Positions 4,237 to 43,047 of a stretch of 53,676 nucleotides of DNA are shown here, in pieces. The stretch spans positions 1-53,676 of the forward strand of contig JAPPJC010000053.1 in NCBI GenBank assembly GCA_028820455.1, read 5' to 3'. Position numbers and translations under genes: made by a program. Every line of letters begins with the position of its first letter. The first letter of the stretch is position 1. Under the pieces are notes generated by a model. That model searched no databases, was not told where the DNA came from, and saw only the letters and a list, made by a program, of their open reading frames with translations. Source of the DNA: Acidimicrobiaceae bacterium (GTDB taxonomy: Bacteria; Actinomycetota; Acidimicrobiia; Acidimicrobiales; Aldehydirespiratoraceae).

Positions 4237-4343
4237 GTTGGATATTTCAGGCGGTTACCAGACGGAATGTGTGAGAGCAACATTGTAAGATCGCTGTTTC
4301 GGGTGGGAGTTGGATATTTTGAATGGTTGCCAACCAAAATGTG
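4237..4343. repeat. Diverged direct-repeat pair, 35 bp each, 37-bp insert (period 72)
   Basis: Copies lie at 4237-4271 and 4309-4343. Both begin GTTGGATATTT and end AATGTG. 25 of 35 positions match, and nine of the ten differences are transitions. The unique insert is 4272-4308. The geometry is the same as the other paired repeats in this window, but the copies are older and lie between genes. Confidence 0.7.
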
Positions 4344-4493
4344 CAGCTTGTTCGCTAAAATATGCAACTGAGAGAAAGACGACAGATGACTGAACTTGCC
4401 TCCGCTGGATCTGACGATGGTCTGGCTTTGTTCGTGTCGATAGCCCACCCTGAATACTGTCTGGGATTCTAACCTCTTAGTGGTGACCTGGAA

Positions 4494-5138
4494 ATGGGCA
4501 ATTCGAAAAAATCGCCGGGATGGTATGTAGACCCTAAGAACTCTAAACAGTGGCGTTACTGGGATGGTGGTAGGTGGACCAACCACTACGAGCCACGTGA
4601 CCCTCAATTCCCCGACCTGGCTCCGATCAGACTACCGAGTCTATCCCAAGACCGCGACCCACCACCTAAACCCGCATTCTCACACCTCACCACACCCACA
4701 ACAGAATCCCCCAAGCCGAAAACAACAAAAGAGCCCAACCCAAAGACATCCTCGCACTCTACCGCATCCTCATCCGCAAATACAGACTTCGCCACAACAA
4801 GACCCGCAAACACACCCACAACAACTGTGGATCCAACCAGCGATCGCGCCTTGCGATCATCAGCATCTGCGTGGCAGCCGGGATGGTATGCAGATCCCCA
4901 AGACAACAGGCAATGGCGTTACTGGGACGGCACAGAATGGACTGAGTCTCGTTCTCCCCGTCGACGCGAGACTAGGCATGAAACTCTGCCTGGCAACGCT
5001 TCACAACCTCCATATTCGCCAAACCCCGCACTTATACTGTTCGTTCTCGGAGCTGTTGGCGCAGTGATACTACTCGTTGTCACTGATTCTTTGCACTTAC
5101 TTGGAGCCTTACTAGCCTTTATCTTTGCACTTCTCTAG
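4494..5138 (+). CDS. DUF2510 membrane protein, copy 2
   Basis: A 214-residue paralogue of the preceding gene. The DUF2510 modules are at about residues 6-34 (GWYVDPKNSKQWRYWDG) and 125-153 (GWYADPQDNRQWRYWDG), separated by a Thr/Pro/Ser-rich linker. A C-terminal hydrophobic stretch (about 180-213) is long enough for one hairpin or one long transmembrane segment and ends within a few residues of the stop. The start at ATG 4494 places the first module near the N-terminus, as in copy 1. The linkers of the two copies differ completely although the first modules are identical in DNA. The role is unknown. Confidence 0.8.
   Translation: MGNSKKSPGWYVDPKNSKQWRYWDGGRWTNHYEPRDPQFPDLAPIRLPSLSQDRDPPPKPAFSHLTTPTTESPKPKTTKEPNPKTSSHSTASSSANTDFATTRPANTPTTTVDPTSDRALRSSASAWQPGWYADPQDNRQWRYWDGTEWTESRSPRRRETRHETLPGNASQPPYSPNPALILFVLGAVGAVILLVVTDSLHLLGALLAFIFALL
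4515..4673 (+). repeat. 159-bp perfect duplication, copy 2 (partner 3505-3663)
   Basis: Identical to 3505-3663; see that entry. Confidence 0.95.
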
Positions 5139-5311
5139 CGGATGTCATCGGTTGATCATATCGGCGTTGGCTTGGTGGTTTTTCACATGAATGTACCATT
5201 TCAGGCTGTCGTTCAAATTGGGCTCGGAGTCTTCTGTACTGCCATTACAAACTGCACGCTGAGGGCTTGTTCGCAGGCATGGTCTGCAACTGGTGACATT
5301 GTCGGTGACAT

Positions 5312-5337
5312 CGACGAAGCCATCGGTGGCTTCGTCG
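5312..5337. terminator. Strong hairpin between a DUF2510 gene and a convergent oxidase gene
   Basis: CGACGAAGCCA and its exact reverse complement TGGCTTCGTCG flank a TCGG loop, giving an 11-bp perfect stem. It sits between convergent genes, which fits a bidirectional terminator. No long T run follows on either strand, so an intrinsic terminator is not certain. Confidence 0.5.
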
Positions 5338-5384
5338 GCGGCTGAACTTCTTCCTGTTGACCGGTCATCAGTCAACAAACCTTT

Positions 5385-6680
5385 TTAGGTGACTGTCAGT
5401 GGGTGCGGTAGTGGTTGGTTGAAGAGGTAGCCTTTACGGTTGAAGGGGATGAAATCCGGTTGGGTGTTACCCGTTGTGTCTGTGGCGCGGGTTGTCAGCG
5501 TGTGCTCTCCTAGGGTGGCCACCCAAGTGAACTCGAAGCGTGTCCATGAGTGCTGGTGTAGCGGTTTGTGCAGGTCTGCTAGGTTCCAGGTTGCTCCCGA
5601 GTTGTCGCTCCATTCGACTTCGGTGATCGGGTGCGGGGAATGGGCGAAACCGTGGATGCGGTGACTTCCAGCTGTTAGTTGTGTCGGCCAGGGCAAGGCC
5701 AGGGCACTCTTTATCACTTGTGTGGTGATCACCGTACCGTCGGCTCGACCTTCTGAGGGGTAGTTGTCACCGGCCAGTACGTAAGATGTCGTATTGTTGC
5801 GTGTCCAGAGTTGTTCTGAAGACACGACTATTCGTCCTACCCATTTGATCCAGGAACTTCCGACCCATCCCGGTACCACAGCACGCAGAGGGAAACCGTG
5901 GTCTTCAGGTAGGGTTTCACCGTTGAGGGAATATGCCAGCAAAGTGTCGGGGTGCATCGCTTTATCGATCGGTATCACACGTCGGAACCCCCCTTCGGGT
6001 GAGTCTTTGTCCAAACCGACTAGCAGCACGCTGATAGCCTCGGAGGTTATCCCTGCCAGCTCGAGCACATTCCACAAAGACACACCTGTCCATTCACCGT
6101 TGCTCACAGCTCCCCGTTCCCATTGTGTGCCGGTGGCTGTTCGACCGTTGACTAGTTTGAACATGGCGCGCTGATTGCCAGCGCATTCCAAATAAGCGAT
6201 CACAGTTTTGCTGGGCATGTTCCGCAGGTCTTCATAGGACATCTCCAACGGATTCGACACCGCATCTCCCTGTACTGACAGACGCCAGGCCTCTGTGTCC
6301 AGGCCGATGCTCTTGGAGTTGTTGCGTACGAAGAACAGCCTGTTAGGAGTTGTTACGCCTTGCATGTTCTCAAGCCGAGCCTCCAGACCCCCAGAGCGCA
6401 CAATGAACGGATCCGAATCCTTGAACCAGGCCTGTCCCTCCGCTGCTGTCGTGTTCGAGACGGAGGCTTTCTCTGCTGCCGCCGTCGGATCGGGTAGCGT
6501 CTCACCGCTACAAGCTGCCAACACAGCAGCAGCACCTCCCGTGGAGAGTAACTTCAGATACTGTCTTCTGCTGATCCCTCTGCTACATGCGAGTGTCCAG
6601 ATCGGGTTGGTGATTTCGGATGTTCGTGTTCGTGTGGTGGTTTTAACATTTCGCACGACTGCATCTCTATCTCCGGGCAT
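5385..6680 (-). CDS. Sulfite-oxidase-family molybdopterin enzyme, Tat-exported
   Basis: A 431-residue protein of the sulfite oxidase family. A twin-arginine export signal (SRRQYLKLL, Arg38-Arg39) is followed by a hydrophobic run ending LAAC at Cys57, so it may be a Tat-exported lipoprotein. The catalytic domain has YLECAGNQR, whose Cys166 is the expected molybdenum ligand, and further family blocks include GVSLWNVLELAGI and SSWIKWVGRIVV. The last 100 residues look like the Mo-co dimerisation domain (SPHPITEVEWSDN, WVATLGEHTLTTRATD). No heme-binding domain is visible, so an external electron acceptor is needed. moaA, moaC and moeA at 38-41 kb could provide its cofactor. The substrate could be sulfite or another small oxidisable compound. 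The start at 6680 leaves a rather long 37-residue leader before the Arg pair. Confidence 0.88.
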   Translation of the reverse strand: MPGDRDAVVRNVKTTTRTRTSEITNPIWTLACSRGISRRQYLKLLSTGGAAAVLAACSGETLPDPTAAAEKASVSNTTAAEGQAWFKDSDPFIVRSGGLEARLENMQGVTTPNRLFFVRNNSKSIGLDTEAWRLSVQGDAVSNPLEMSYEDLRNMPSKTVIAYLECAGNQRAMFKLVNGRTATGTQWERGAVSNGEWTGVSLWNVLELAGITSEAISVLLVGLDKDSPEGGFRRVIPIDKAMHPDTLLAYSLNGETLPEDHGFPLRAVVPGWVGSSWIKWVGRIVVSSEQLWTRNNTTSYVLAGDNYPSEGRADGTVITTQVIKSALALPWPTQLTAGSHRIHGFAHSPHPITEVEWSDNSGATWNLADLHKPLHQHSWTRFEFTWVATLGEHTLTTRATDTTGNTQPDFIPFNRKGYLFNQPLPHPLTVT

Positions 6681-6786
6681 TTCAAGATGATCCAGTCAGA
6701 GGGTTTCCATTTGAGGTCGGTTGATCATGCAGCTTTATAGTGGACTTGGCATTTCTGTTGAGGACTTGGCATTTCAAGGTCATCCA
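6676..6786. repeat. Short imperfect direct repeat at the start of the oxidase gene (period 92)
   Basis: A 19-bp sequence beginning ggcatttcaag occurs at 6676-6694, covering the oxidase start codon, and again at 6768-6786 with 17 of 19 matches. A 14-bp unit ggacttggcatttc is also tandemly repeated at 6742-6755 and 6762-6775. This resembles the longer paired repeats elsewhere but is weaker. Confidence 0.45.
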
Positions 6787-6883
6787 TTAAACCTATTATA
6801 ACATCTTGATTTCGACCCCAATCGAAGTGCACAATATCGAACACGACCGAGATTCGCATTGCTGCCAGGAACCAGAGATGATA

Positions 6884-7700
6884 TCACATGGTGTCTACGC
6901 TTCGGCGAAGTCTTCGCCAACCTCGCCCATCCAGACGTGATGCATTCAACTTGGTTATGTTATCCCCTCTCCCCGCCCGCATTCGTGATGGCATGACCAT
7001 ACTGCAATCGCATTGAAGGGCGTGGCTGACAGTCATTCGAATGTGAGGCTTGGGTGGTTGGCCGGATGATAGTAGAGTCTCGGATATGAGGTTTGAGTTC
7101 ACTTCGGGAAGGGGGCTCTGTAGATTGCGCATCGTACTTATCCCGAGGAGTCGATGCAGCAGCCCCGAATCTCGCAAGTAGAAGAGAAGCGATCTGGCCC
7201 GGCACTTGGCGATGTTCGCATGCCAAAGCGGAAACTGGCGCACAACCAAGGCGTCGCTCAGAACATCGACATAGCACTGCACAGTGGAAACCGACACGCC
7301 GATCGACCGGGCTATCGCAGCACCGTTCCACCTCTGACCGTGGCAGTGCGCCAGCATCGTCCAAAATCCCGCATTGTCGCTGCCGGGTAGAGGAACCCCA
7401 GACCGGCGAGGTTTCGTTCCAGGAATGTGGAGATGTAAAGATTCGAGAAGCTGCGCTAACATCGCTTCGCCGTCTCGTTCCAGGAATGTGGAGATGTAAT
7501 CGTCGCGTCAGGGGCCAGATGCTCTGTCACTGGCAGCGAGGAAAGATTCGGACAGGCCGTCTCGCAGCCACAGCTCGTCGATACGGACAGTACCCACGTC
7601 CGTCAGACGGAAGCCTCCTAAAGCAAGGTGGATCTGGAGTGTATGGGCACGGGCACGACCTCTTAGCTCCACAAGGCAGGAGTTGGTCGATGGGTTGAGC
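6884..7700 (-). pseudogene. Broken AAA-type ATPase with DUF4143 C-terminus
   Basis: Minus-strand pieces of one DUF4143-type ATPase can be joined across several lesions. The right-hand piece reads VGTVRIDELWLRDGLSE and SFLAASDRASGP, then TGA where the family has Trp, then [12 protein letters not shown]. There the gene is split by a 61-bp insertion (36 new bases plus a 25-bp duplication). A second YISTFLERN follows, then a frameshift near 7365, and then [15 protein letters not shown] and [14 protein letters not shown]. The N-terminal P-loop half is missing and the C-terminus fades out. Such ATPases are often mobile and multicopy. The exact edges are uncertain. Confidence 0.75.
7414..7499. repeat. 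Direct-repeat pair, 25 bp exact, 36-bp insert (period 61)
   Basis: Exact copies lie at 7414-7438 and 7475-7499 (beginning tcgttccagg), with unique sequence 7439-7474 between them. The repeat encodes the same YISTFLER stretch twice in the DUF4143 pseudogene. The ancestral gene must have had it once, so the insertion is a derived event. The period of 61 equals that of the pair at 30805-30894. Confidence 0.9.
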
Positions 7701-7765
7701 GTCTTGGTCGTGTCTGCGAAGTCCTCCTCGCCCAGGAGGCGGCAATCAAGCGGATCAAGTGTAGG

Positions 7766-9364
7766 ATGGGCGTCGTGTGGCAGGGAAAGGAACAGCAAAA
7801 GCTCAGGCTACCGATCTCGATTCAGACTTTCCGCGAGGTGCGCGAGTCGGGCTGCTACTACGTGGACAAGACCACCTATATCGAACGCCTCGCGAACGAA
7901 GGCAAGAGCTATTTCCTGTCGCGGCCGCGCCGTTTCGGCAAGAGCCTGTTCTTGGATACGATCAAGGAAGCGTTCGAGTGCAGCAGGGAACTGTTCGAAG
8001 GGCTCACGATCCACGACCGGTGGGACTGGTCTGCACCACGTCCTGTGGTGTGTTTGAGTTTTGGCAGCGGATATTTCACTGAACGGGTGGGACTGTCGAC
8101 TGATCTGCTGGCCCAGTTGGAGAGGATCGAGTCCGAAGCGGGTGTGCACGACGCTGGGTTGGGATGCGAAGCGGTCGCGCTGCCGGGCCGTTTCCGCCGT
8201 CTGTTGGCTGAACTGCACCGCCGTTGGGGGCGTCGTGTGGTGGTGCTGGTGGACGAGTACGACAAGCCGATCCTGGATGCCATCGGAGACCCCGACACAG
8301 CGCGTGCGAATCGTGATTTCCTTCGGGGGTTCTACGCGGTGATCAAGGACTCGGACGAGCATGTGCGGTTCGCGCTCCTCACGGGAGTGAGTAAGTTCTC
8401 CAAAGTGAGCCTGTTCTCGGGGTTGAACAATCTCATCGACATCACCCTGGAGTCGGAGTTCTCGTCGATCTGCGGCTACACCGACGACGACTTGGACACG
8501 GTGTTCGCAACTGAGCTGCACGGGCTGGACCGCGACCGCATCCGCGAATGGTACAACGGCTACAGCTGGCTCGGCAGCGAGAAGGTGTACAACCCCTACG
8601 ACGTGCTGCTGCTGTTTCGCAAACGCAGATTCGGGGCGTACTGGTCCGAAACCGGCACTCCCAAGTTCCTGGTCGATACACTCATCGAACGCGGAGTCTC
8701 CACAGTGTCTCTAGGTGATATAGTCGCCGGCGAAGATCTGCTGTCCACGTTCGACATAGACTACATCGCCGTTGAGGCACTGCTGTTCCAGACCGGGTAC
8801 CTCACCGTAGTCGGCGAAGAGAACCGGGGTGCTGTGCTGCCGTTGTACCGGCTGGACTACCCCAACCTGGAGGTACGCATGAGTCTCAACCGTGTGCTGT
8901 TTCGCCAGCTGGCCCAAGACCACTCCCTTGAGCACCTCGATCGCAGCAACCTGCCGCAACTGCTGCGAGACGGCGACCTCGGGGGCATACGGGGCTTGCT
9001 GCACAGACTGTACGCTAGTATCCCCTACGAGTGGTACACCAACAACACCATCACAAGATTCGAGGGGTATTACGCCAGTGTGTTCTACTCATACTTCGCT
9101 GCACAGGGGTTCGACATCAAAGTGGAGGACAGCAGCAGTCACGGTCGCCTGGACATGGCGGTGTGCTACGCCGGGAGCGTGTTCCTGTTCGAGTTCAAAG
9201 TCGCAGGAGCGGGAGCGTCGCCACCGGTGCAGCCGCTGGAGCAGATGCGCGAGCGCGGCTATCCCGACAAGTATCGAAGCACAGAAGAACCGGTATATCT
9301 CATAGGCGTGGTGTTCGATCCCGAGAAACGCAACATCGCCGCGTTCGAAACCGCCCTAGCCTGA
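7766..9364 (+). CDS. AAA-ATPase-like protein with PD-(D/E)XK nuclease-like C-terminus
   Basis: A 532-residue intact protein. The N-terminus (about 16-65) has LPISIQTFREVRESG, YYVDKTTYI and SRPRRFGKSLFLD, the signature of the AAA-ATPase-like family, with GKS as a P-loop-like segment. A Walker-B-like VVVLVDEYDKPI follows near residue 160. The C-terminal 100 residues (GRLDMAVCY, then FLFEFKVAG) match the PD-(D/E)XK nuclease-like domain usually fused to it, with the Asp and the ExK pair present. The cellular role is not established; the genes are patchy and often multicopy. The region is clearly richer in G+C than the flanks and lies among relics, which suggests horizontal acquisition. Confidence 0.85.
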   Translation: MGVVWQGKEQQKLRLPISIQTFREVRESGCYYVDKTTYIERLANEGKSYFLSRPRRFGKSLFLDTIKEAFECSRELFEGLTIHDRWDWSAPRPVVCLSFGSGYFTERVGLSTDLLAQLERIESEAGVHDAGLGCEAVALPGRFRRLLAELHRRWGRRVVVLVDEYDKPILDAIGDPDTARANRDFLRGFYAVIKDSDEHVRFALLTGVSKFSKVSLFSGLNNLIDITLESEFSSICGYTDDDLDTVFATELHGLDRDRIREWYNGYSWLGSEKVYNPYDVLLLFRKRRFGAYWSETGTPKFLVDTLIERGVSTVSLGDIVAGEDLLSTFDIDYIAVEALLFQTGYLTVVGEENRGAVLPLYRLDYPNLEVRMSLNRVLFRQLAQDHSLEHLDRSNLPQLLRDGDLGGIRGLLHRLYASIPYEWYTNNTITRFEGYYASVFYSYFAAQGFDIKVEDSSSHGRLDMAVCYAGSVFLFEFKVAGAGASPPVQPLEQMRERGYPDKYRSTEEPVYLIGVVFDPEKRNIAAFETALA

Positions 9365-9366
9365 CC

Positions 9367-9450: not shown

Positions 9451-9521
9451 TAGCATGGAAAACCAATAGAGTTTGGAGCACGAGGTCACCGGAAGGTTGT
9501 GCGGGTGGTCAGTTCTGGGTC

Positions 9522-9881: not shown

Positions 9882-10001
9882 CAAAGAGGAAAGGTGACGA
9901 CAACCCGTTGAAAGGTGGCGATTATTGAAGATAGATGTGCAGGGACGCAGAAGCCTTGGCTAAACATCGCCAAAGAGGAAAGGTGACGACAACCCGTTGA
10001 A
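9882..10001. repeat. Direct-repeat pair, 31 bp exact, 58-bp insert (period 89)
   Basis: Exact copies lie at 9882-9912 and 9971-10001, beginning caaagaggaaaggtgacg and ending acccgttgaa. The left copy ends at the start of the small minus-strand ORF. The insert of 58 bp is longer than in the other pairs. The GTTGAA end resembles the end of many CRISPR repeats, so a two-repeat array remnant is possible, but no leader or cas gene is seen. Confidence 0.85.
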
Positions 10002-14873: not shown

Positions 14874-15282
14874 AGCACAAATGCCTGCCGTAGCCCAACT
14901 CGCTATTTCGAATTTTGAGAACTAATTTTATTAATTGAAAATAACTTATAATAATTTAAAAATCATTCAAATATATTATATAGTACATAATCTACGGTTG
15001 ATATGTTATAATTGAGTGCAGGTGTTGAAGATAGTTCTGAACAAATCATCAACTTTGAAGCAGCGGGCTTTTGTTTGAACAACGGTTCTTCAATAAAACA
15101 AGCACTCCAGATACTCAGGCAGGGATCAGCGACAGACAAGTCGAAAAATCAGTGCATAAGAAGCAAGAATAGATGCTGTTAAAAAGCAAAAAATGCAAAC
15201 AGGTGATCCACGATGATTCGTGAACTCTACGGGAACTTGAAATCAATCATGGGCCCCAACATCAGCAAACAGGTGATCCACG
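14874..15282. other. 409-bp gap splitting the Tad operon
   Basis: An unusually long spacer for this tight operon. It holds a very AT-rich stretch (about 14920-15015), a 56-codon possible gene relic (15012-15182) and the first copy of the direct repeat that overlaps the tadC start. Confidence 0.6.
15012..15182 (+). pseudogene. Possible relic of a T2SF-domain (TadC-like) gene
   Basis: A 56-codon frame from TTG 15012 to TAA 15182 contains FEAAGFCLNNGSSIKQALQI. This resembles the helix-turn LxxGxSLxxAL segment of T2SF domains, of which tadC has its own version (LLSAGWSLGSSLERI). It lies directly upstream of tadC. The match is short, so this is tentative. Confidence 0.3.
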
Positions 15283-15302
15283 ATGATTCGTGAACTCTAC
15301 GG
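15195..15302. repeat. Direct-repeat pair, 38 bp exact, 32-bp insert (period 70), at the tadC start
   Basis: Exact copies lie at 15195-15232 and 15265-15302, beginning gcaaacaggtgatccac. The right copy contains the tadC ribosome site (AGGTGAT), its ATG and the first 20 coding bases. The left copy is a displaced duplicate with its own ATG in another frame. The repeat contains the inverted pair CACGA/TCGTG. The unique insert is 15233-15264. Confidence 0.97.
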
Positions 15303-16185
15303 ACTGTTCGCTTTGTGTTTCCTGGGTTTTACCTTGGTTTTTTCTGATTTTCGTTGGTTCCAGCGTATAGGGCTGGCAGAACGACTCAAAGGGTATACTC
15401 CCATGCAGGGAGGACGTAGCAGTACAGGCATTCTATCTGTTGGTTCGTTCAGGGAAGTCATAGTGCCGTTATCGCATGCCATAGGCGAACGCCTGTCTTC
15501 TGCTTTGCGGGTTAGTGAGGAGCTAAGTGTACGGCTGGAACGTATCCACTCCCCCATCGGTGTTGCTGGCTATAGAGTACGTCAAGTGGGATGGGCAGCG
15601 GCATCTTTCGGTTTAGCGGTAATTGTAAGCGTACTCGTCAGCTTGCCAGTCATCATCGCGGTAGCTGCCATATTTGGAACCCCTATATTGGCTTTCCTCG
15701 TGTTGGAGCAACGTTCTATATCTGCTTCCAAGCATTGGCAGCAAAGGTTGCGCATGGAACTGCCTGTAGTTACCGAGCAGATAGCAATGTTACTTTCGGC
15801 TGGATGGTCTTTGGGTTCTTCTTTGGAAAGAATCAGCAGGCGGGGTACAGGGATTTGCGCTGCTGATCTAAAACGTGTAATGATACGAATCCGCCAAGGA
15901 CTCAGTGAGGTAGAAGCATTGCGAGAATGGGCTAAAAAAGCCGATATTGATCCTTTATACAAACTGGTGTCAGTCTTATCGCTTAACAGCGAAGCAGCTA
16001 ATCTTGGAAAATTGATCAGCGAAGAGGCGCGTGCTATGCATAAAGAAACACAACGTGAGCTCATCGAGGCAATAGAACGTCGGTGTCAGCAAGTGTGGAT
16101 ACCAGTAACAGCAGCAACGCTAGTACCTGGTGTGATGCTTATGGGTGTACCTTTCATCGACGCGCTGACTTTGTTTTCAATGTAG
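15283..16185 (+). CDS. tadC: Tad pilus inner-membrane protein TadC
   Basis: A 300-residue T2SF-domain protein with an N-terminal hydrophobic segment, a central membrane hairpin (about 105-148) and a C-terminal membrane segment. The helical cytoplasmic domain includes TEQIAMLLSAGWSLGSSLER and the family's terminal block near VPVTAATLVPGVMLMG. It pairs with TadB in the pilus platform. The ATG at 15283 is preceded by AGGTGAT and lies inside the 38-bp repeat that was duplicated upstream. Confidence 0.83.
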   Translation: MIRELYGLFALCFLGFTLVFSDFRWFQRIGLAERLKGYTPMQGGRSSTGILSVGSFREVIVPLSHAIGERLSSALRVSEELSVRLERIHSPIGVAGYRVRQVGWAAASFGLAVIVSVLVSLPVIIAVAAIFGTPILAFLVLEQRSISASKHWQQRLRMELPVVTEQIAMLLSAGWSLGSSLERISRRGTGICAADLKRVMIRIRQGLSEVEALREWAKKADIDPLYKLVSVLSLNSEAANLGKLISEEARAMHKETQRELIEAIERRCQQVWIPVTAATLVPGVMLMGVPFIDALTLFSM

Positions 16186-23064: not shown

Positions 23065-23152
23065 GAAGCGTTCACATGCGACATGCACCTATGAGAACTT
23101 CACCCGTGTGATCACGCGGCCACAGTGCGACCCGAAGCGTTCACAGTGCGAC
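23065..23152. repeat. Diverged direct-repeat pair at the rluB 3' end (period 69)
   Basis: gaagcgttcaca occurs at 23065-23076 and 23134-23145, each followed by near-identical tgcgac and a related tail. The right copy contains the rluB stop (23141-23143). A second, 21-bp overlap repeat (cacagtgcgac at 23121 and 23142) is superimposed. The geometry matches the other pairs, but this one is degraded. Confidence 0.6.
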
Positions 23153-27280: not shown

Positions 27281-29014
<1,734 letters not shown>

Positions 29015-29080: not shown

Positions 29081-30814
29081 TTATCGCATTACTTTACACT
29101 GTGTTGCCTGAGAACATTGGGCAGTGCTAACCAAAAGTTCTTTAGCGTGTTGTTGAGCCGTTTTGGAGTTAGGCGATCCAGAGATCATTCTCGACATTTC
29201 AACTACACGTTCTTCCTGCGAGAGCACATGCACCCTAGCCGACGGTTGTTCTGTAATGTCGGAGATGGATTTTTCCACGAACAAATGATCTTTGGCGTGA
29301 GCAGCCACTTGCGCTAAATGCGTCACAACAACTACTTGATCGGTGAGTAGGGACAAGCTATGTCCGACCGCATGAGCTGCGACACCGCCTACTCCAGCAT
29401 CGACTTCGTCAAAAACTAAAGTCGGCGCACCGATGCCTGTCACCATACGCAAAGCGAGCATAACACGCGAAAGTTCGCCTCCACTCGCAACCTGGGTTAA
29501 AGGTAGTGGCTCATGACCAAGATTGGCTGCTAAAAGGAATTTAACACGCTCACCGGCAGCACCTGCTAAGCTGATGTGGATTTGAGCTTCTGCCATGGCA
29601 AGGTTATGCAAGTGCGACTCTATTGCAGTGATTAGCTGGGGTACAGCTTTCGCTCTTGCGCTATAAACTAGTTCCTGCTCGGCAGCAAGAGCATCTGATA
29701 TTTCGTGGCGTTGTTCATCCAAGGCAGCTGCTTGCTTATCACGGTTTTCCAATTCAGCGAGTCGCTGAGCTGTCAAAACACTGAATTCAATTACTTCATG
29801 AAGTGATGACCCATATTTTCTGCGTAATTCTGCTAGTTGTTGACGTCGCTCACGTATAGCTGCTAGAGCATTGGGGTCATCATCAATGGCTTCAACTGTT
29901 GTTCGTATCGCAGCAACAGCTTCAGCTATTTCAGCCTCCGCATTCGTGAGATATTCTACTGCTAAAGCGAACGGAGTTCGGTTCTGCAAGGTAGCTATGG
30001 CTTGGCTCAATCCGTTGGAAACGAAACTTTCAGTGTTCAACAGTCCTAAAGTAGTTTGGGCTGCATCATGATGAGCAGAAGCTTCAGATATGACCTCCTC
30101 AAGATTTTTCAGGCGTTCGTCTTCATCTGCATCTTCGATATCAGCAGTTTCTATCTCTGTTAGTTGATAGCGTAGAAGGTCGATTTCGCGGAGTCTTTCA
30201 CGCTCATCACCGCCCAAAGCTGCCCGAGTTTCATCAATGCGTTGAAGTTCTTGCTTGAGTGAAGTCAAAGTCGCGGTTTCGGTACCTGCGAATCGATCAA
30301 GAGCTGCCCGCTGAGAAGGTGTCGCAAGAAGTTTTTGATGAGTATTTTGTTTGTGCAGTTCAACTAGCACACTTCCCAAACTCGCCAAAGACTTAACAGT
30401 AGCTAGACGACCGCCGATATAGCAGCGTGAACGCCCTTTACGTGGTATTATACGTCTTACTATTATCTCTTCAGTTTTTTCTTCACTGTTGTTGCCGATA
30501 TCATCATCAACATCACTGGTATTAGGACTTCGGCTAGTAGGTGGATCTATTTTCTCATGGTACTCATTGAAGGAGCAATGGTAATCAGCAACAAGATTGG
30601 CATTAACGATAAAACGACCTTCTACTTCAGCAAATTCAGCACCAGGTCTTACCTGTCCAGAATCTGCTCGCCCTCCTGCTATCAAGTCAATGGCATTTAG
30701 GATCAAAGTTTTACCAGAACCTGTTTCACCGGTAATTGCAGTCATACCGCGGTCAAGCAATAACGTTAACTCTTCGATTACGCCTAGATTCCGGACATTC
30801 AACTCAGTCAGCAT
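29081..30814 (-). CDS. recN: DNA repair protein RecN
   Basis: A 577-residue SMC-like ATPase of double-strand-break repair. The N-terminal ATPase half has ITGETGSGKTLILNAIDL. A long coiled-coil centre (about 165-400) follows, and the C-terminal half has LSRVMLALRMV (signature) and LVFDEVDAGVGG (Walker B). An acidic Ser/Asp/Glu insertion around residues 92-115 (NTSDVDDDIGNNSEEKTEE) looks lineage-specific. The start codon lies inside a direct-repeat pair. Confidence 0.94.
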   Translation of the reverse strand: MLTELNVRNLGVIEELTLLLDRGMTAITGETGSGKTLILNAIDLIAGGRADSGQVRPGAEFAEVEGRFIVNANLVADYHCSFNEYHEKIDPPTSRSPNTSDVDDDIGNNSEEKTEEIIVRRIIPRKGRSRCYIGGRLATVKSLASLGSVLVELHKQNTHQKLLATPSQRAALDRFAGTETATLTSLKQELQRIDETRAALGGDERERLREIDLLRYQLTEIETADIEDADEDERLKNLEEVISEASAHHDAAQTTLGLLNTESFVSNGLSQAIATLQNRTPFALAVEYLTNAEAEIAEAVAAIRTTVEAIDDDPNALAAIRERRQQLAELRRKYGSSLHEVIEFSVLTAQRLAELENRDKQAAALDEQRHEISDALAAEQELVYSARAKAVPQLITAIESHLHNLAMAEAQIHISLAGAAGERVKFLLAANLGHEPLPLTQVASGGELSRVMLALRMVTGIGAPTLVFDEVDAGVGGVAAHAVGHSLSLLTDQVVVVTHLAQVAAHAKDHLFVEKSISDITEQPSARVHVLSQEERVVEMSRMISGSPNSKTAQQHAKELLVSTAQCSQATQCKVMR

Positions 30815-30894
30815 CGCGCGTACGTGTACTCATCGATGACCCTTTCGAGGACGGCCACGTCACAGCAGTCAGCATCGCGCATGCGTGTACTCAT
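30805..30894. repeat. Direct-repeat pair, 29 bp (27/29), 32-bp insert (period 61), at the recN start
   Basis: Copies lie at 30805-30833 and 30866-30894, beginning cagtcagcatcgcgc. The left copy contains the recN start codon (30812-30814). The two differing bases change one palindrome (CGTACG) into another (CGCATGCG). A 29-bp repeat with a 32-bp insert is exactly the unit geometry of type I-E CRISPR arrays. The insert (30834-30865) is about 62% G+C by hand count. Confidence 0.93.
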
Positions 30895-31249: not shown

Positions 31250-31351
31250 ATATTGTCGGGATTACTAGAAGTCAAGTAGTGCATGACAGCAATACTCATA
31301 ACACTGAAGGTCACGGTCAGATATTGTCGGGATTACTAGAAGTCAAGTAGT
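31250..31351. repeat. Direct-repeat pair, 31 bp exact, 40-bp insert (period 71), at the nadK 3' end
   Basis: Exact copies lie at 31250-31280 and 31321-31351, beginning atattgtcgggattac. The right copy encodes the last ten sense codons of nadK. The stop codon (31317-31319) lies in the insert, not in the repeat. Reading instead from the left copy, the frame would continue for 14 more codons to a TAA. The insertion therefore seems to have supplied a new stop. Confidence 0.96.
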
Positions 31352-32315
31352 CAGGCTGAGAGTCATCAATATGGTAATCAGCCAAACCGAACTTAGCTTT
31401 CAACACTTGGTGGAATGGGCGTTTGCCAAACTTGATGAAGCGCACACTGTGAGGCGATTTAGAGCATTTCACAGTATCGCCCACATCGATCTTCGCCACG
31501 CGGCGTCCGTCTATTGACAATACCGCCGGACGATTACTCGTAACCATGATCTGCAAGTGTGTCGAAGAAGGAACCACTAAAGACCGATTGAACAGCATGT
31601 GAGGTGATACGGGGGTTAAAAGTAAAGCTTGATGTGATGGATCGATTATCGGGCCACCAGCAGAAAAAGCGTAAGCAGTGGAGCCGGTGGGAGTGGCTAC
31701 TATTAGTCCGTCTGCTCTATAAGTGGTGAATAAGTCATCGTCTAAATGCACAGTCAGAAAAATTGTGTTTGAAGACGGTCCTCGCTCAATGAAAGCTTCA
31801 TTCAGGGCTAGATAACGATTGACACTTGAAGAAGTTCGGGGAGTTTTCGAGCTTTCTTTGATATCGGTTTGACAAGTTGTGGAAGAGTCAGCAGTCCTTT
31901 CTTTCGTGTGATGGGTAGTGTGACAAGGCTGGTGCGTTATGTCGAGTAGTAGTCGATCCTCAACTTTGAAATCACCTTTTAGTACTCTTTCGATAGCTGC
32001 ACGCGCTTTACCGGGTTGAACTTCTGACAGGTAGCCAAGACGCCCGAAGTCAACGCCTAATATAGGCACTTGTGTAGTGCCTACCAGTTTTATTGCACGC
32101 AGTATTGATCCATCGCCACCTAAGGTAATCAGAGTGTCAAGGCCGTCAGCGAAACCTTTGTGTTCCACCGCAAGGTTTTTACATCCAGTGGCTTCTGCCT
32201 CTTCGGGAGGCATGCGTACTTGATGGCCGGACGAGGTCAGCCATTTGGAAAGATCGCGGGCCGATTTTGCAGCAGCAGGACGATCTTCGTGAACTATTAG
32301 CCCTATAGCAGCCAT
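31317..32315 (-). CDS. nadK: NAD kinase with low-complexity insertion
   Basis: Phosphorylates NAD to NADP. 332 residues with TLGGDGSILRA (catalytic Asp68), GVDFGRLGYLSE, the NE/D region LALNEAFIERG and TPTGSTAYAFSAGGPI. Compared with the family there is an extra stretch of about 35 residues (about 128-164), rich in Thr, Ser, His and Lys, between the RLLLDI strand and LALNE. It keeps the frame. It lies between tlyA and recN in the usual order. The C-terminus was probably shortened by the repeat-pair insertion. Confidence 0.93.
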   Translation of the reverse strand: MAAIGLIVHEDRPAAAKSARDLSKWLTSSGHQVRMPPEEAEATGCKNLAVEHKGFADGLDTLITLGGDGSILRAIKLVGTTQVPILGVDFGRLGYLSEVQPGKARAAIERVLKGDFKVEDRLLLDITHQPCHTTHHTKERTADSSTTCQTDIKESSKTPRTSSSVNRYLALNEAFIERGPSSNTIFLTVHLDDDLFTTYRADGLIVATPTGSTAYAFSAGGPIIDPSHQALLLTPVSPHMLFNRSLVVPSSTHLQIMVTSNRPAVLSIDGRRVAKIDVGDTVKCSKSPHSVRFIKFGKRPFHQVLKAKFGLADYHIDDSQPDYLTSSNPDNI

Positions 32316-35786: not shown

Positions 35787-35877
35787 GCTTACGTATTTTC
35801 CGAAGTTCGGTCAAGCGAAAAATCTGTTTGCTGTTCTTGTGCTGACCCTACCCCAACACCGTAATGTCGATATGCCT

Positions 35878-37683: not shown

Positions 37684-38246
37684 TTATGTTGCCTCCGTAT
37701 CCGCACGGCCTGCCAAGAATTATCGATTAGAATCATGCTCAACTCAGACTTTAGGAGATTGCTTTCAGATAACGTTTGCTGTGTGCGTTATAGTATGTCA
37801 GTGATTCTGTCAAATATGTAACACTGCTAAATATGCAACACAGATAATCTTTGGTATCGCAGTCTGTATCTTCGTCTTCTATGTCTGTGTTCTGACCTTT
37901 GCGTTCCGTGTTCTCTGTTGCACTAGACAGCCGTTCTATATCGTCATTTCAGTATAACGCCATTACTACGTCATTACTACGTTATTATTGCGAAATGTGT
38001 GACAATCTGTAATATGCACTCAACAATATATACTATGATTGTTACTAAAGATACAACTCTTTGTCATAAAAAAATACATTTCTCTTTGTCATAAAAAATA
38101 CATTTCACATTTCTTCTAATTGTCATAAAATCGCTGCGGGCAATCGGCTATTCAATTAAGGGGTTTCATTTACGGCTATGCTTCGTGGGAGGGCCAGTGG
38201 GAATCTCCACGTGCTGATGCGGATGATGCCGGGGTTTCATTTACGG
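37684..38246. other. AT-rich gap with small tandem repeats
   Basis: No gene is recognised in 563 bp. It holds a 25-bp tandem repeat at 38057-38105, short repeats of cattactacg around 37971-37982, and the displaced copy of the moaC-end repeat. Confidence 0.5.
38057..38105. repeat. Tandem 25/24-bp AT-rich repeat
   Basis: A unit beginning ctctttgtcataaaa and ending tacattt occurs at 38057-38081 and 38082-38105, differing by one A. A third partial copy (attgtcataaaa) lies near 38119-38130. Confidence 0.9.
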
Positions 38247-38262
38247 CTATGCTTCGTGGGAG
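38160..38262. repeat. Direct-repeat pair, 32 bp exact, 39-bp insert (period 71), at the moaC 3' end
   Basis: Exact copies lie at 38160-38191 and 38231-38262, beginning ggggtttcatttacgg. The right copy holds the moaC stop (38247-38249) and its last codons; the left copy is displaced downstream. The unique insert 38192-38230 is about 61% G+C by hand count in an otherwise AT-rich gap and is an open frame (GQWESPRADADDA) on the plus strand. Confidence 0.97.
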
Positions 38263-38726
38263 TGACTGTAGTAGGCACCCGAACGACCTCCGGTTTTTTC
38301 CTGTAAGACAATCTCACCTATGACCATTGATCGGTCTAAAGATTTACACATGTCGTAAATTGTAAGTGCCGCAACGCTGCAGGCGGTTAGTGCTTCCATC
38401 TCAACACCAGTACGATCAACAGCTGTTACTTTTGCTGTGATCTCAATGATCTTCTTGTGAATCACAAAATCAACACGAGCTGAGCTTATAGTTAACCCAT
38501 GACATAGAGGAATCAGTTCTGAAGTTCGTTTGGCAGCTTGTATTCCCGCTACACGAGCTACGCTTAACACATCACCTTTTGCAACTTTCTGCTGCGCAAC
38601 CCTAGTAGCTACATCTGTCGTGGTAAAAACTTTTCCTTGCGCAACAGCAGCTCTGCGCGTTGGGGTCTTGTTTGCAATATCCACCATTTGTGCTTGTTGT
38701 TTTTCATCAAGGTGAGTGAAGCTCAT
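38247..38726 (-). CDS. moaC: Cyclic pyranopterin monophosphate synthase MoaC
   Basis: The second enzyme of molybdenum-cofactor synthesis. ATG 38726 (MSFTHLDEKQQAQMVDI) gives 159 residues. Conserved blocks are IPLCHGLTISSARVDF, VTAVDRTGVEMEALTACSVA and LTIYDMCKSLDRSM. It starts right after the moaA stop, so the two are coupled. The end of the gene lies in a direct-repeat pair. Confidence 0.94.
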   Translation of the reverse strand: MSFTHLDEKQQAQMVDIANKTPTRRAAVAQGKVFTTTDVATRVAQQKVAKGDVLSVARVAGIQAAKRTSELIPLCHGLTISSARVDFVIHKKIIEITAKVTAVDRTGVEMEALTACSVAALTIYDMCKSLDRSMVIGEIVLQEKTGGRSGAYYSHSHEA

Positions 38727-38728
38727 TT

Positions 38729-39715
38729 TTAACCGCCGATCTGGGACATGGAACGGCGGGGGCGAATAAAGTTCACTTGATTTATCTGATGTCCTGCCCA
38801 TTTTGTTGCTACTGAAGTTGATACTGCTGAGGCTATTTCGTCGTCGGTAGCTTTGTTACGCAAGAGTTTTCGTATGTCTGTTTCACTGGTGGCAAATAGG
38901 CAGTTACGGAATTGTCCCTCTGCTGTTATTCTCACCCGGTCACAAGTCGTGCAAAATGATTCACTCACTGATGCAACTATCCCTATGTAGCCTTTTCCAT
39001 CAAGAAATCGATATCGAGTAGCTGGTGCCGACGTACGCACAACAGGTTCTATAGGGCTAACGCTGTTCACCAGGTATCTGATTTCGTCAGCAGTTATGAC
39101 TTGGTTGTTGCCCCATTTTTGATCGGCGTCTAAAGGCATAAACTCTATGAATCTGACTTCGATCCCTTTTTCACGGCCGAAGGCTACGAAGTCGGCTATT
39201 TCGTCGTCGTTGGCACCGCGAATTAAGACGCAGTTAATTTTCACGGGTCTAAAACCGACAGCAATAGCCGCATCGATTCCTTCTAAAACACGCGACAGCA
39301 TATCACGGCGAGACAGCTCAGCAAAGCGTTCAGCGCGCAATGAGTCACACGAAATGTTGACTCTGTTCAAACCGGCTTTTCGTAATTCGCGTGCTATTAA
39401 AGGCAACGAAACACCGTTGGTGGTCATTGCCAGATCAACCGGTAGTTTTGCTAGCTTCTTGATAAGAACAGGCAGTTTAGCTCGCACAGTAGGTTCGCCA
39501 CCGGTAATACGTATACTGTTGAAGCCGTAATATTCCACCATGATTTTAGCCACACGGGTAATTTCTTCAAAGGTGAGTAAATCGGCTCGGGATACCCACT
39601 TCAAACCTTCAGCAGGCATGCAGTAGGTGCATCTGAAATTGCAACGATCTGTAACCGAAATGCGAAGATCGCGATGGACCCGGCCAAACCCGTCTACAAG
39701 CTGCTTTACCATCAT
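38729..39715 (-). CDS. moaA: GTP 3',8-cyclase MoaA
   Basis: A radical-SAM enzyme that converts GTP in the first step of molybdenum-cofactor synthesis. 328 residues. The SAM cluster motif is CNFRCTYC (N-terminal third). The C-terminal second iron-sulfur site is in FCTTCDRVRITAEGQFRNCL. ITGGEPTVRAKLP and VNISCDSLRAERF are also conserved. It forms a pair with moaC. The expected C-terminal GG tail of MoaA is present as the last two residues (QIGG). Confidence 0.95.
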   Translation of the reverse strand: MMVKQLVDGFGRVHRDLRISVTDRCNFRCTYCMPAEGLKWVSRADLLTFEEITRVAKIMVEYYGFNSIRITGGEPTVRAKLPVLIKKLAKLPVDLAMTTNGVSLPLIARELRKAGLNRVNISCDSLRAERFAELSRRDMLSRVLEGIDAAIAVGFRPVKINCVLIRGANDDEIADFVAFGREKGIEVRFIEFMPLDADQKWGNNQVITADEIRYLVNSVSPIEPVVRTSAPATRYRFLDGKGYIGIVASVSESFCTTCDRVRITAEGQFRNCLFATSETDIRKLLRNKATDDEIASAVSTSVATKWAGHQINQVNFIRPRRSMSQIGG

Positions 39716-39778
39716 CTAACAGGCTACTAGCTATTTCCAGACACTTTAGCCGGTTGTTGTGTCATGTTTGTTCAAGCT

Positions 39779-40360
39779 TTAGCGGCTGCGCTGATCTTGG
39801 GCGGCCGTGGTTGCCAGTTGGTCTACTATCTCATTCCACTCGTCTCCTGAATGCCCTTTCACCCAGTGCCAGGATATTTCTTGCTTACGAGCTATAAAAA
39901 GGTCTATTAAGGGTTCCCAAAGATCGCGATTGGCTACTGGTTTTTTGTTGGCATTGCGCCAACCACGTTTCTGCCATAAAACATACCATTCATCACGGAA
40001 ACAATTCACCACATAAGCCGAGTCTGAAATCACTTTAACAGGCCCACTGATCGCCTGTAACGCCATTAAAACTGCGGTGAGTTCCATCCGTTGGTTGGTG
40101 GTGTGAGACTCAGCCCCACTAGCCCATGGTCCTTTTGGTATCACCCACGCCCAGCCTCCCGGGCCAGGATTTCCGAGGCAGGCTCCATCCGTGTAAACGA
40201 CAACAAGATCAGATGCTGGAAGTGATTGTTGCATATCGCTGCTATCTTGCTCGAGTCGATGGCGTCGGCGGACAACAAGATCAGATGCTGGAAGTGATTG
40301 TTGCATAGGCTGATCTAACTGTATGGGAAATGCCTGTTGCTTGGGTTGAGGTTGTGCCAT
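39779..40360 (-). CDS. rnhA: Ribonuclease HI with duplicated N-terminus
   Basis: Cleaves RNA in RNA-DNA hybrids. 193 residues from ATG 40360, which overlaps the moeA stop by one base (TAATG). The catalytic carboxylates are Asp58 (VVYTDGACLGNPGPGG), Glu93 (NQRMELTAV), Asp113 (ISDSAYVV) and Asp180, with His170 in the flexible loop (VKGHSGDEWNE). The first 54 residues are unusual: MQQSLPASDLVV occurs twice, separated by 12 residues. A 72-bp in-frame insertion (37-bp duplication plus 35 new bases) caused this. ATG 40234 may be the original start or may still be used. Confidence 0.93.
   Translation of the reverse strand: MAQPQPKQQAFPIQLDQPMQQSLPASDLVVRRRHRLEQDSSDMQQSLPASDLVVVYTDGACLGNPGPGGWAWVIPKGPWASGAESHTTNQRMELTAVLMALQAISGPVKVISDSAYVVNCFRDEWYVLWQKRGWRNANKKPVANRDLWEPLIDLFIARKQEISWHWVKGHSGDEWNEIVDQLATTAAQDQRSR
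40199..40307. repeat. Direct-repeat pair, 37 bp exact, 35-bp insert (period 72), inside the rnhA 5' end
   Basis: Exact copies lie at 40199-40235 and 40271-40307, beginning gacaacaagatcagatg. Both carry an in-frame ATG and the codons for MQQSLPASDLVV. The repeat ends form the inverted pair CAACAA/TTGTTG. The insert 40236-40270 is about 63% G+C by hand count. 25 of its bases match the 5' end of tlyA (about 33219-33243) at 21 positions. Confidence 0.98.
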
Positions 40361-41664
40361 TATGTGAAGCCATTCATGAAAACATTCAGGGGTATTACAT
40401 CAACTACATCACCCGGGTTTATAACAAGATTATCCTGTACTACTGCCAGTCCATTGGCTTGAGCCATAGTTGCAAGCTGATGAGAACCTTGACCGTCAAT
40501 TCGAGCGACTTGCAGCGTTCCTTGTTCGCTGTGCTTTGTAAAAACTCGTATGTAATGTGTTTTACCATCACGAGGATGTGATAATGTGTTTTGGCTTACT
40601 GCGCGTATGGTGAAGGGTCCTAAAGCATCTGCATCATATCCTGCCATAGCACGCAAAGCAGGCTTGGCTAGCAACTCGAAACTAACCATCGACGAAACCG
40701 GATTACCTGGAAGGCCGAAAACTGGTATTCCTTGCACAAGCCCAAAAGCGAACGGTTTTGCCGGTTTAATGGCGATTTGCATCCAGCGCATTTCGCCAAG
40801 CTGCTCTAATACTGTTTTCACGTAATCATAATCACCCATCGACACACCACCTGATGACAACACAGCGTCGCATTCGTTGATTGCATACTGCAAGACACTC
40901 TTTATGTCATCTTCGTTGTCGCGGGCGATTCCCAGATCAACACCTATAAAACCGGCTTGATCAACCAAACCGAGCAAGCTGTTTCGGTTACTGTCACGGA
41001 TCTGTCCACGCTGTAGCCGTATAGGCTCATCCACTAATTCGTCACCTGTTGACATCACACCAACCCGCGGCCTCCTATAAGTGGCTACCTGATAGCAACC
41101 GATACTTGCCAAAACACCAAGATGACCGGGTTGGAGAGGTGTTCCAGCTTGGAGCACGATCTGACCCGCTGAAATGTCATCGCCAGCATGGCGGATATGA
41201 TCGCCAGGTTGCACTGTCCGGCTAATGACCACCCGCTCGAGATCAAGTTGGTTGGAGGTGGAGGTGGAGATCGTTGTAGAGTTAAACTCAGTAAGTGCTG
41301 ACTCCAAAGAATCAGCTGGTTTCAGCAAACGAGTGTTTTCCACCATTATCACCGCATCAGCACCTGCGGGCATTACTGCCCCGGTCATGATCCGTACAGC
41401 CTCATTAGGACCTACGTTGATGTTTTTGTCGTCGCCGGCTGAGATTGTTTCCACAACATTAAGAGTTACCGGTGTGTTCACAGTATCTATAGACCGTAAA
41501 GCGTAACCATCTACTGCTGTATTGGTAAAAGGCGGAATCGTTTCAGTTGAGACCACTGATTCTGTGAGCACTAATCCCAGCGCATTCTTCAAGGGTACGA
41601 CAGTTCTAGGTAATGGTTCGATCTGCTTCAAAACGTAAGATTGAGCTTCAGATAAGGGAATCAT
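40360..41664 (-). CDS. moeA: Molybdopterin molybdenumtransferase MoeA / gephyrin-like Glp
   Basis: Inserts molybdate into adenylated molybdopterin. ATG 41664 gives 434 residues. Motifs are PPFTNTAVDGYAL, VMPAGADAVIMVE, MSTGDELVDEP, SSGGVSMGDYDYVKTVLEQL and VFGLPGNPVSSMVSFELLA. A Thr/Ser-rich loop near residues 129-140 (SALTEFNSTTISTSTSNQ) is extra. In corynebacteria a MoeA homologue (Glp) also binds FtsZ together with the membrane protein GlpR; a GlpR-like gene is nearby. Translation is coupled to rnhA by TAATG. Confidence 0.92.
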   Translation of the reverse strand: MIPLSEAQSYVLKQIEPLPRTVVPLKNALGLVLTESVVSTETIPPFTNTAVDGYALRSIDTVNTPVTLNVVETISAGDDKNINVGPNEAVRIMTGAVMPAGADAVIMVENTRLLKPADSLESALTEFNSTTISTSTSNQLDLERVVISRTVQPGDHIRHAGDDISAGQIVLQAGTPLQPGHLGVLASIGCYQVATYRRPRVGVMSTGDELVDEPIRLQRGQIRDSNRNSLLGLVDQAGFIGVDLGIARDNEDDIKSVLQYAINECDAVLSSGGVSMGDYDYVKTVLEQLGEMRWMQIAIKPAKPFAFGLVQGIPVFGLPGNPVSSMVSFELLAKPALRAMAGYDADALGPFTIRAVSQNTLSHPRDGKTHYIRVFTKHSEQGTLQVARIDGQGSHQLATMAQANGLAVVQDNLVINPGDVVDVIPLNVFMNGFT

Positions 41665-41713
41665 TGTCAAACTATCCTATAACATCTATGCGACTTATAC
41701 TGGTTAAGCAGTT

Positions 41714-42307
41714 TTAGACTTTTAGTTCTTTACCACGCCATAAGTGTTGTAAGTTTGAGCGGTGACACCAAAGGATGATAAGAACTACCACTGCTACTGT
41801 CAATATTTCCTCTGATGAGCGACCTCCAATTATCACTGATGCGAAATAGATAGCGGTGACACTAAACGATGCCAGTGCCGCTATCCTAGTCAATCGGCAA
41901 ACAACCACAAATGTTGTAATGCATATCGCAAACAATAATGGGTCCAAAACCAACACCCCACCCGCGGATGTGGCTACACCTTTACCGCCACGTAGTTTGC
42001 TCCTTGGCAGCAACTTCAATATGGGCCAGATGTGGCCAAGTATTGCACCGACCCATGCAGCAAGCATTGCCCTGCGATCCCACAACAATGATGCCATCAA
42101 AGTGGGTATCGCACCTTTAGCCATATCTATGAGCCCAACAGTAATACCAGCTGCCCGACCTCCAATACGATATATATTGCTAGCTCCAGGATTGCCAGAA
42201 CCTTCGCTTAGAGGATTGCGATCAATACAACGGCCGACTAAGAGGGCTGTTGGAAACATGCCCAAAATGTAAGCAACAATCCCTATTGCAATAATTGTTG
42301 TATTCAT
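41714..42307 (-). CDS. plsY: Acyl-phosphate:glycerol-3-phosphate acyltransferase PlsY
   Basis: A 197-residue membrane enzyme that makes lysophosphatidic acid, the first step of phospholipid synthesis; PlsC at 19 kb does the second step. The family motifs are present in order: GSGNPGASNIYRIGG, then AAWVGAILGHIWPI, then RGGKGVATSAGGVL. About five hydrophobic helices are visible. The order moeA-plsY is not a known functional link. Confidence 0.92.
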   Translation of the reverse strand: MNTTIIAIGIVAYILGMFPTALLVGRCIDRNPLSEGSGNPGASNIYRIGGRAAGITVGLIDMAKGAIPTLMASLLWDRRAMLAAWVGAILGHIWPILKLLPRSKLRGGKGVATSAGGVLVLDPLLFAICITTFVVVCRLTRIAALASFSVTAIYFASVIIGGRSSEEILTVAVVVLIILWCHRSNLQHLWRGKELKV

Positions 42308-42529
42308 AGTTTTGAATAATAGGCACTCTTAAGCCTTATTTGGGTTTGCTTTACTTGCTTTACCAAACTTTGTGGTTGTTTTTTGTTCAATCAGTAGACC
42401 TGTTAGTTAGCCTACGAACACAACCAACAACATTGAAATTAATAAAATATCATTGAATGATTTAAAAATGTCATTTTTTTCTGTTAGCATGTAGCTGTCG
42501 TTGGTGTGAGAGTGCTAACCTACGCGTTC

Positions 42530-42925
42530 ATGCCAATGTACGACTATAGATGTGATCTTTGTGACATTCAGTTTGAAGTGCGTCAGTCATTTCAGGATGA
42601 TGCACTTATTGTATGTCCTGCTGTTGCAGCTATGCCTGGTTGCAAAAAGCCTGGTGAAGGAATTGTTAAAAAAATATTTGCTAGCGTGGGAATTGCTTTC
42701 AAAGGGGAAGGTTTTTACAAGAACGACCATGGTTCTCATGCTAAAAGCCGCAGAACAGAGCAAGAAGCAGCGCAAGCCAACGTTGACAGTAAAAGCAAAA
42801 CTAAAGATAAAGATGCCTCTTCGGATAGTTCTTCTTCGCAAAATAATAAAAAAGACAAAGAACAAACTTCTAGCAACAAGAGTCATAATTCCAGCAAGGC
42901 AGAAACACCTGACATCACTTCATAA
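42530..42925 (+). CDS. FmdB-type zinc-ribbon protein
   Basis: 131 residues from ATG 42530 (MPMYDYRCDLCD); the family begins MPxYxYxC, so this start is preferred to the upstream GTG. A CxxC pair (RCDLC) and a second Cys pair (CPAVAAMPGC) form the expected zinc ribbon. The second pair is widened by an insertion. The rest is a Lys/Ser/Glu-rich disordered tail (KTKDKDASSDSSSSQNNKKD). The small FmdB proteins are putative regulatory or folding factors. A neighbouring SAF-domain gene is a common actinobacterial association. Confidence 0.8.
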   Translation: MPMYDYRCDLCDIQFEVRQSFQDDALIVCPAVAAMPGCKKPGEGIVKKIFASVGIAFKGEGFYKNDHGSHAKSRRTEQEAAQANVDSKSKTKDKDASSDSSSSQNNKKDKEQTSSNKSHNSSKAETPDITS

Positions 42926-42937
42926 GCAACAGTGTAC

Positions 42938-43047
42938 ATAGTGCAAGTGACGTGAAGTTCTATAGCCGGGAAGTGGACTACTCAAACCTAACGGGATGAC
43001 TGGTGGCGAATAGTGCAAGTGACGTGAAGCTCTATAGCCGGGAAGTG
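42938..43047. repeat. Direct-repeat pair, 38 bp (37/38), 34-bp insert (period 72), upstream of the SAF gene
   Basis: Copies lie at 42938-42975 and 43010-43047, containing gtgcaagtgacgtgaag and ctatagccgggaagtg, with one transition. The right copy ends 7 bp before ATG 43055 and carries the likely ribosome site; the left copy is displaced toward fmdB. The unique insert is 42976-43009. Confidence 0.96.

Follow-up and report, generated by a model that had tools for sequence, protein, structure and literature searches.

The 53,676-nucleotide stretch of DNA analysed here (the window; Acidimicrobiaceae bacterium, assembly GCA_028820455.1, contig JAPPJC010000053.1) carries pairs of direct repeats that differ from locus to locus, each enclosing a unique insert of the size of a spacer from an array of clustered regularly interspaced short palindromic repeats (CRISPR). 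The first-pass annotation had read these pairs as CRISPR integration outside an array, and this is supported as the best explanation by 112 pairs in the genome, a period matching that of the genome's own array and the presence of cas1-cas2. We consider it quite probable that the loci were made by Cas1-Cas2 integration outside a CRISPR array; the enzyme, the mechanism and the foreign source of the inserts are inferred.

Repeat pairs across the genome

The window corresponds to contig C59:1-53676 in a bacterial bin of 84 contigs and 2.41 Mb (2,406,515 bases), which is 91.75% complete. The genome sample comprised 81 sequences (1,404,061 of the 2,406,515 bases, 58%) and was scanned for direct repeats (match +1, mismatch -2, score at least 22, insert at least 10, period 30-200, low complexity removed). 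The scan returned 158 clusters, 126 of which have a period of 55-80. Two rows of the true array and 12 rows of tandem repeats, repeat proteins or low complexity were removed, picked by hand after the sequences had been inspected, which left 112 locus-specific pairs with unique inserts in 1,404,061 bases, or roughly 8 per 100 kb. Scaling up from 58% gives about 190 such pairs in the whole genome.

The genome-wide scan that had been proposed as a check turned out positive, with 112 clean pairs and a sharp, non-random period: 77 periods fall at 70-76, 40 of these being 72 itself, while 16 fall at 60-62, 17 at 63-69 and two below 60. The bin 30-49 and every 20-bp bin from 90 upwards hold 0-6 clusters, and the peaks stand at 72 and 61. 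At each of the 112 sites a target of about repeat length is duplicated around a unique spacer-sized insert. No single repeat is common to all units, as it would be in a canonical CRISPR array, for the repeats vary by locus.

The 70-76 class has a median repeat of 35 and a median insert of 38. Repeats range over 24-47 (standard deviation, sd, 4.6) and inserts over 25-49 (sd 4.9), while the sum of the two has an sd of 1.2. The 60-62 class is similar (repeat 25-38, insert 23-36). Thus the early picture of a fixed repeat with a fixed spacer does not fit; it is the sum that is constant, and each part varies. The copies end sharply, because significant gapped extension at the outer edges of the 70-76 class occurs at 8 of 154 edges against 7.7 expected. 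Shortening of the repeats by decay or hidden indels was rejected, since for repeats of at most 31 bp 2 of 38 edges extend against 1.9 expected.

Cas machinery and the true array

A search for cas1, cas2 and a true array, also suggested at the first pass, found two modules, each with its own cas1 gene. One is a complete type I-G set of Cas4-Cas1 fusion, Cas2, Cas3g, Cas5/6g and Cas7g. The fusion (615 residues) scores 748 bits with NF049935 (Cas4g/Cas1g; cut-off 560) and retains every column that is invariant among eight aligned Cas1, including EG, H and EE, which we take to be the catalytic residues. The array next to the fusion has a 36-bp repeat and spacings of 72, 74, 73, 72, 113 and 72, of which 113 bridges a run of N, and the other broken end of the array shows spacings of 72 and 73. 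The array period of 72-74 resembles that of the main pair class, with its off-array mode at 72. The second cas1 is of type II and stands with Cas2 and Cas9; a direct repeat was looked for on this cas1-cas2-cas9 contig and none was found.

The I-G array is split over the contig ends C29/C28 (L002:1-600, L097:1-170), with a run of N and G-rich units of damaged appearance. Moreover, the I-G proteins at L032:1095-2942, L032:4005-7424 and L032:7342-9195 exceed the model lengths: Cas4-Cas1 has about 77 residues ahead of the model, Cas3g has 1139 residues and is matched in three stretches, and Cas5/6g has 617.

Distribution among relatives

With this genome (G000) included, 8 of 31 genomes contain PF01867, and the relatives were sampled at 10-60 kb each. 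Eight relatives without cas1 gave 4 clusters in 330,143 bases; the only one with a period of 55-80 is a plain tandem repeat of a 34-bp unit in three copies. From G002 and G011, whose Cas1 aligns throughout with the Cas4-Cas1 fusion, 140,000 bases yielded three pairs outside arrays. Their periods are 74, 76 and 73, and two of the three share a contig with cas1; the array of G002 has a period of 71-75. A further pair with a period of 73 was found in contig L024 of a metagenome-assembled genome (MAG), among six named contigs (112,507 bases). The same-genus relative G001 (83% complete) has a single cas1, which scores like the type II one, and gave 0 pairs in the 116,348 bases scanned. In these small samples with one dense genome, cas1-cas2 is present here and the relatives lacking cas1 have no such pairs. 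To this limited extent the process follows cas1, but G000 is exceptional in density.

Insertions relative to genes

Genes were called with home-made six-base word statistics and no trained gene finder, so some genes were overlooked. Only 20 of the 112 pairs lie inside called genes, though called genes make up 80% of the sample, and in 19 of these 20 the period is divisible by three. The remaining 92 comprise 40 at a gene edge and 52 between genes, and their period remainders of 0, 1 and 2 number 42, 30 and 20.

Comparison with relatives, another of the proposed checks, agrees with insertion at the two coding sites that were aligned, MiaB and EccC: the duplicated peptide is missing from the relatives and most of them are shorter. 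In MiaB, the same-genus relative reads RRQTTDLTDDNWW, and this genome has RKVYIDAGSNG, the insert and then RKVYIDAGSNGVLDDEWW; against 15 relatives, the duplicated peptide and the insert are confined to this genome. In EccC, a second EVADVDDPMPR and the insert precede the conserved stretch ahead of LVVVVDEF, and these are found in none of seven aligned relatives. Substitution, in which a patch would be copied 72 bp away with the length unchanged, was rejected because of these relatives of MiaB and EccC and the reading-frame rule. The pairs are insertions under selection. The same MiaB loop carries different, unrelated insertions in two of the 15 relatives (L140 of G005, L141 of G004), and another long loop occurs at the same place of EccC in L156.

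Origin of the inserts and junctions

When 89 inserts were compared all against all, the longest common stretch was 14 bases. These 89 have no inserted sequence in common, and no motif was found at the insert ends; one or the other would be expected of a transposon or a miniature inverted-repeat transposable element, casposons included. The sole clear genomic source among the 112 concerns the 33-base insert at L098:5083, of which 31 of 32 bases match L134:1992-2023; with one clear case of 112 in the 1.40 Mb of the genome searched, copying of the inserts from the host was rejected. The source stretch (L134:1992-2103) overlaps a second pair outside the array, which has a period of 60, and the recipient is L098:5083-5171. 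Weak insert matches of 16 to 21 bases to the genome and to relatives also appeared, the best being 18 exact bases shared by the insert at L094:2977 and G005 (E=4e-4).

The inserts have a guanine-cytosine (GC) content of 0.551, which exceeds the 0.505 of the genome and the values of all 2000 sets of random pieces, and stop-free frames number 4.17 against 3.92 (sd 0.09) in shuffles and 4.01 (sd 0.10) in host genes. The higher GC and the larger number of stop-free frames point to a foreign source as likely. The insert at L186:11441-11475, translated by eye, reads GVGSGSGKT in one frame, which we take to be a nucleotide-binding motif like a P-loop; this insert was perhaps taken from a coding gene.

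With regard to the junctions, the 112 sites have 224 ends, and at 88 of these the fourth base beyond the copied sequence is A (p=1.8e-5, uncorrected). This amounts to a weak, symmetric preference in the target. A junction preference for G was also examined, with G at 73 of 224 ends (p=0.065). Palindromic targets were rejected, because the repeats fold less stably than the adjoining sequence (p=0.006).

Sites with three copies

At four off-array sites, three copies enclose two different inserts:

L047:2766-2921, three copies, two different inserts
L080:19392-19576, three copies, two different inserts; two duplications in shifted registers
L090:17388-17541, three copies, two different inserts
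L098:9990-10135, three copies, two different inserts

The first stands outside the 112 because its best-scoring period is 125. L089:11597 was rejected as a fifth such site, being a plain duplication of one unit. To judge from their layout, the four sites look like newborn arrays. When about 190 sites are spread over 2.4 Mb, chance would not be expected to strike several of them twice, and a duplicated site therefore seems to be a preferred target for further insertion.

Repeat pairs of the window

Eleven pairs had been listed in the window, and an independent repeat search recovered ten of them; the pair at 23065 was not recovered. The letters there show just two copies of GAAGCGTTCACA, beyond which the sequences are offset by one base, and for this reason 23065 was left uncounted. 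The ten pairs, with the periods given by the repeat search (strand stated where assigned), are as follows:

4237..4343, weak pair: repeats 4237-4271 and 4309-4343, insert 37 bp, period 72
7411..7499, pair: 7411-7438 and 7472-7499, 28 bp with one mismatch, insert 33 bp, period 61
9882..10001, pair: perfect 31-bp copies, insert 58 bp, atypical period 89
15195..15302, pair: perfect 38-bp copies, insert 32 bp, period 70
27281..27389, pair: 36-bp copies with two mismatches, insert 37 bp, period 73
30805..30894, pair: 29-bp copies with two mismatches, insert 32 bp, period 61
31250..31351, pair: perfect 31-bp copies, insert 40 bp, period 71
38160..38269, pair: 32-bp copies and insert 39, or 39 bp with three mismatches and insert 32; period 71
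40199..40307, minus strand, pair: perfect 37-bp copies, insert 35 bp, period 72
42938..43047, pair: 38-bp copies with one mismatch, insert 34 bp, period 72, called intergenic

The insert lengths listed earlier agree with ours when exact copies alone are counted; with mismatches allowed they become 33 at 7411 and 32 at 38160. That the repeats are locus-specific also held, since their sequences vary between loci and the inserts are mutually unrelated. Eight of these pairs belong to the 112. The pair at 9882 falls outside the counted period class of 55-80, and that at 4237 is absent because its score is under the scan threshold, though its period fits. The latter pair lies directly after the open reading frame (ORF) 3481-4209, has 71% identity (25 of 35 bases) and is probably old.

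The copied stretch had been said to carry a gene end often. This is so at 15195, 27281, 30805, 38160 and 40199, and it fails at 31250. At 15195, both copies contain GGTGATCCACGATG, and the one in the right copy is the start of a T2SSF-domain gene (15283-16185). The stop of CTP synthase (27371-29014, minus) sits in the right copy of the 27281 pair, as does that of moaC (38247-38801, minus) in the right copy at 38160, and an SMC/AAA-like ATPase gene (29081-30814, minus) starts in the left copy at 30805. The 40199 pair falls within the RNase H ORF 39779-40360 and preserves its frame; both copies encode MQQSLPASDLVV, and a start codon therefore survives in the copy adjacent to the domain. The nearest relatives of this RNase H are encoded by six named records, all of them Acidimicrobiia or Acidimicrobiaceae MAGs; bins named in that way presumably come from sponges. 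At 31250, the right copy codes for the C-terminal residues of the NAD kinase ORF 31317-32315 (minus), and the present stop codon lies within the final bases of the insert (31281-31320), so that the insertion seems to have altered the end of the protein. The left copy at 7411 lies within the DUF4143-domain ORF 6884-7462 (minus), whose listed ATG falls in the insert; this ORF was overlooked by the gene caller, and the pair was tallied as intergenic.

Discussion

If the pairs are products of integration, Cas1-Cas2 would join a DNA fragment of the size of a spacer to chromosomal sequence off the array, the two ends of the fragment being joined to opposite strands about a repeat length apart. Gap repair would then copy the stretch between the nicks and give local repeat, insert and local repeat. 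The class with a period of about 72 would most likely be the product of the type I-G Cas4-Cas1/Cas2. The classes of about 66 and 61 may stem from the type II Cas1-Cas2 or from a system outside the assembly, or alternatively from the same enzyme acting one helical turn shorter. Survivors would be those, for the most part, where the copied stretch preserves a gene end or the insertion stays in frame.

Several points weigh against this explanation. In the usual picture of Cas1-Cas2 products, which is not a strict definition, insert and duplication lengths are each fixed and independent of one another. Here 76 of 112 sums fall at 70-75, where 33% would be expected if repeat and insert were independent and the maximum among 5000 shuffles was 49%; a near-constant sum of variable parts is therefore unlike a fixed spacer with a fixed target duplication. 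No clear match in the sampled 58% of the genome was found for 111 of 112 inserts, and an exact 22-base search of IMG/VR with four inserts found none, which says little. No protospacer adjacent motif (PAM) could be demonstrated for the inserts, and the junction preference is weak, an earlier set of 82 sites having shown none. G002 and G011 carry the fusion, yet their three pairs compare with about 11 expected at the density of G000; G005 and G029 have cas1, and 140,000 bases of them gave, on our reading, arrays and low-complexity matches alone. There is one dense genome, and it is a MAG. Finally, PF08798 (Cas6e family) was not found in the assembly (91.75% complete); there is therefore no evident type I-E source for the period of 61, and type I-E was rejected as that source.

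Some of the same features could suit a different short-insert process, for example staggered-break repair with filler DNA or a template switch, which would add a unit of about 72 bp made of a copied neighbour and unrelated sequence and would resemble CRISPR in its period by coincidence. It is the total added length that is conserved, not the length of the repeat or the insert, and target choice is almost sequence-free with no PAM seen. However, the genome's own array and the G002 array have the same period as the pairs, no such pair was found in the sampled relatives without cas1 while a few were found in carriers of the Cas4-Cas1 fusion, and some sites have gained further copies. We regard such a process as rather unlikely. 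Ordinary tandem duplications in which half of the unit diverged later, or sequence of repeat proteins, are very improbable. A 72-bp period could mimic a repeat protein because 24-residue units amount to 72 bp; on our reading L048 has 24-residue repeats and L182 and L188 have tandem units, and 12 such rows were removed. Among the rows kept, a few in coding sequence whose repeats are long or mismatched (L175:976, L189:12246) could be of this type too. Nevertheless, the copy edges are sharp (8 of 154 against 7.7 expected), the inserts are unrelated and 92 of 112 pairs lie at gene edges or between genes. An artefact of MAG assembly, suggested by a draft bin with N gaps and an array contig that is poor at its end, is hardly credible when the copies differ by at least one base in 51 of 112 pairs, the frame is kept in 19 of 20 coding insertions and like pairs occur in other assemblies (L024, L077, L078, L113).

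Returning to Cas1-Cas2 integration, the sum rule calls for some account of how the copied stretch is measured. The type II system is described as having a ruler that sets the second cut inside the repeat (PMC6895254), and this ruler would be missing at ordinary sequence. We propose that ring closure at a fixed helical phase may lie behind the sum rule: the junction may slide along a ring of copied target and insert, and a fixed helical phase would yield the rule because 61 and 72 are about one turn apart. That the integrase gauges such a closed ring, with a sum of about 61 or 72, instead of the target or the insert alone, and that a lineage with so loose an integrase seeds new CRISPR-like loci over its chromosome, a few of them grown to three copies around different inserts by now, is a tentative idea that we rate as possible but doubtful.

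If integration outside the array is the true cause, the genome documents, in nature, the frequency with which CRISPR memory lands in the wrong place, and it shows the cost of stray integration in the depletion from genes and the in-frame survivors. It would also reveal what determines how much sequence is copied at targets without a CRISPR repeat to direct the enzyme, and show how a new array may arise from ordinary sequence, perhaps with arrays being born at present. Such questions are open to sequence comparison and to a heterologous I-G system.

Comparison with known systems

In the titles and abstract starts searched, no natural genome of such pair density was found, and integration outside the array appears in the literature found as a laboratory observation. 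For type I-G with a Cas4/1 fusion (PMC10504553), the protein family is the same (NF049935), and off-array integration is not in the parts covered, namely the start of the preprint abstract and the reference list; the part of PMC10284694 that was covered likewise has nothing on it. The type V-C Cas1 integrase, for which off-target events are described as frequent in the part covered (PMC13034035), is alike as an adaptation integrase with loose target choice. It works without Cas2 and has half-size repeats and spacers, whereas here Cas4-Cas1 stands with Cas2 and the units are of full size.

Type II-A Cas1-Cas2 gave off-target plasmid products in vitro, likely half-site according to the authors (Kim et al., 2019, PMC6895254, covered in part). 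Both cases have scattered off-array sites and a weak preference at the junction, for G in that study and with G at 73 of the 224 ends in this genome, whereas full insertions in a chromosome are found here. In Escherichia coli, overexpression of Cas1-Cas2 led to non-canonical spacer integration (Nivala et al., 2018, as cited by PMC11788318 and PMC9456107). As far as these citing papers describe it, spacers likewise enter non-array regions of the genome. That case was seen on overexpression, whereas the present one is a natural genome in which the sites are of mixed age and number about 8 per 100 kb, and it differs from the E. coli integration in a repeat length that is variable at a constant sum.

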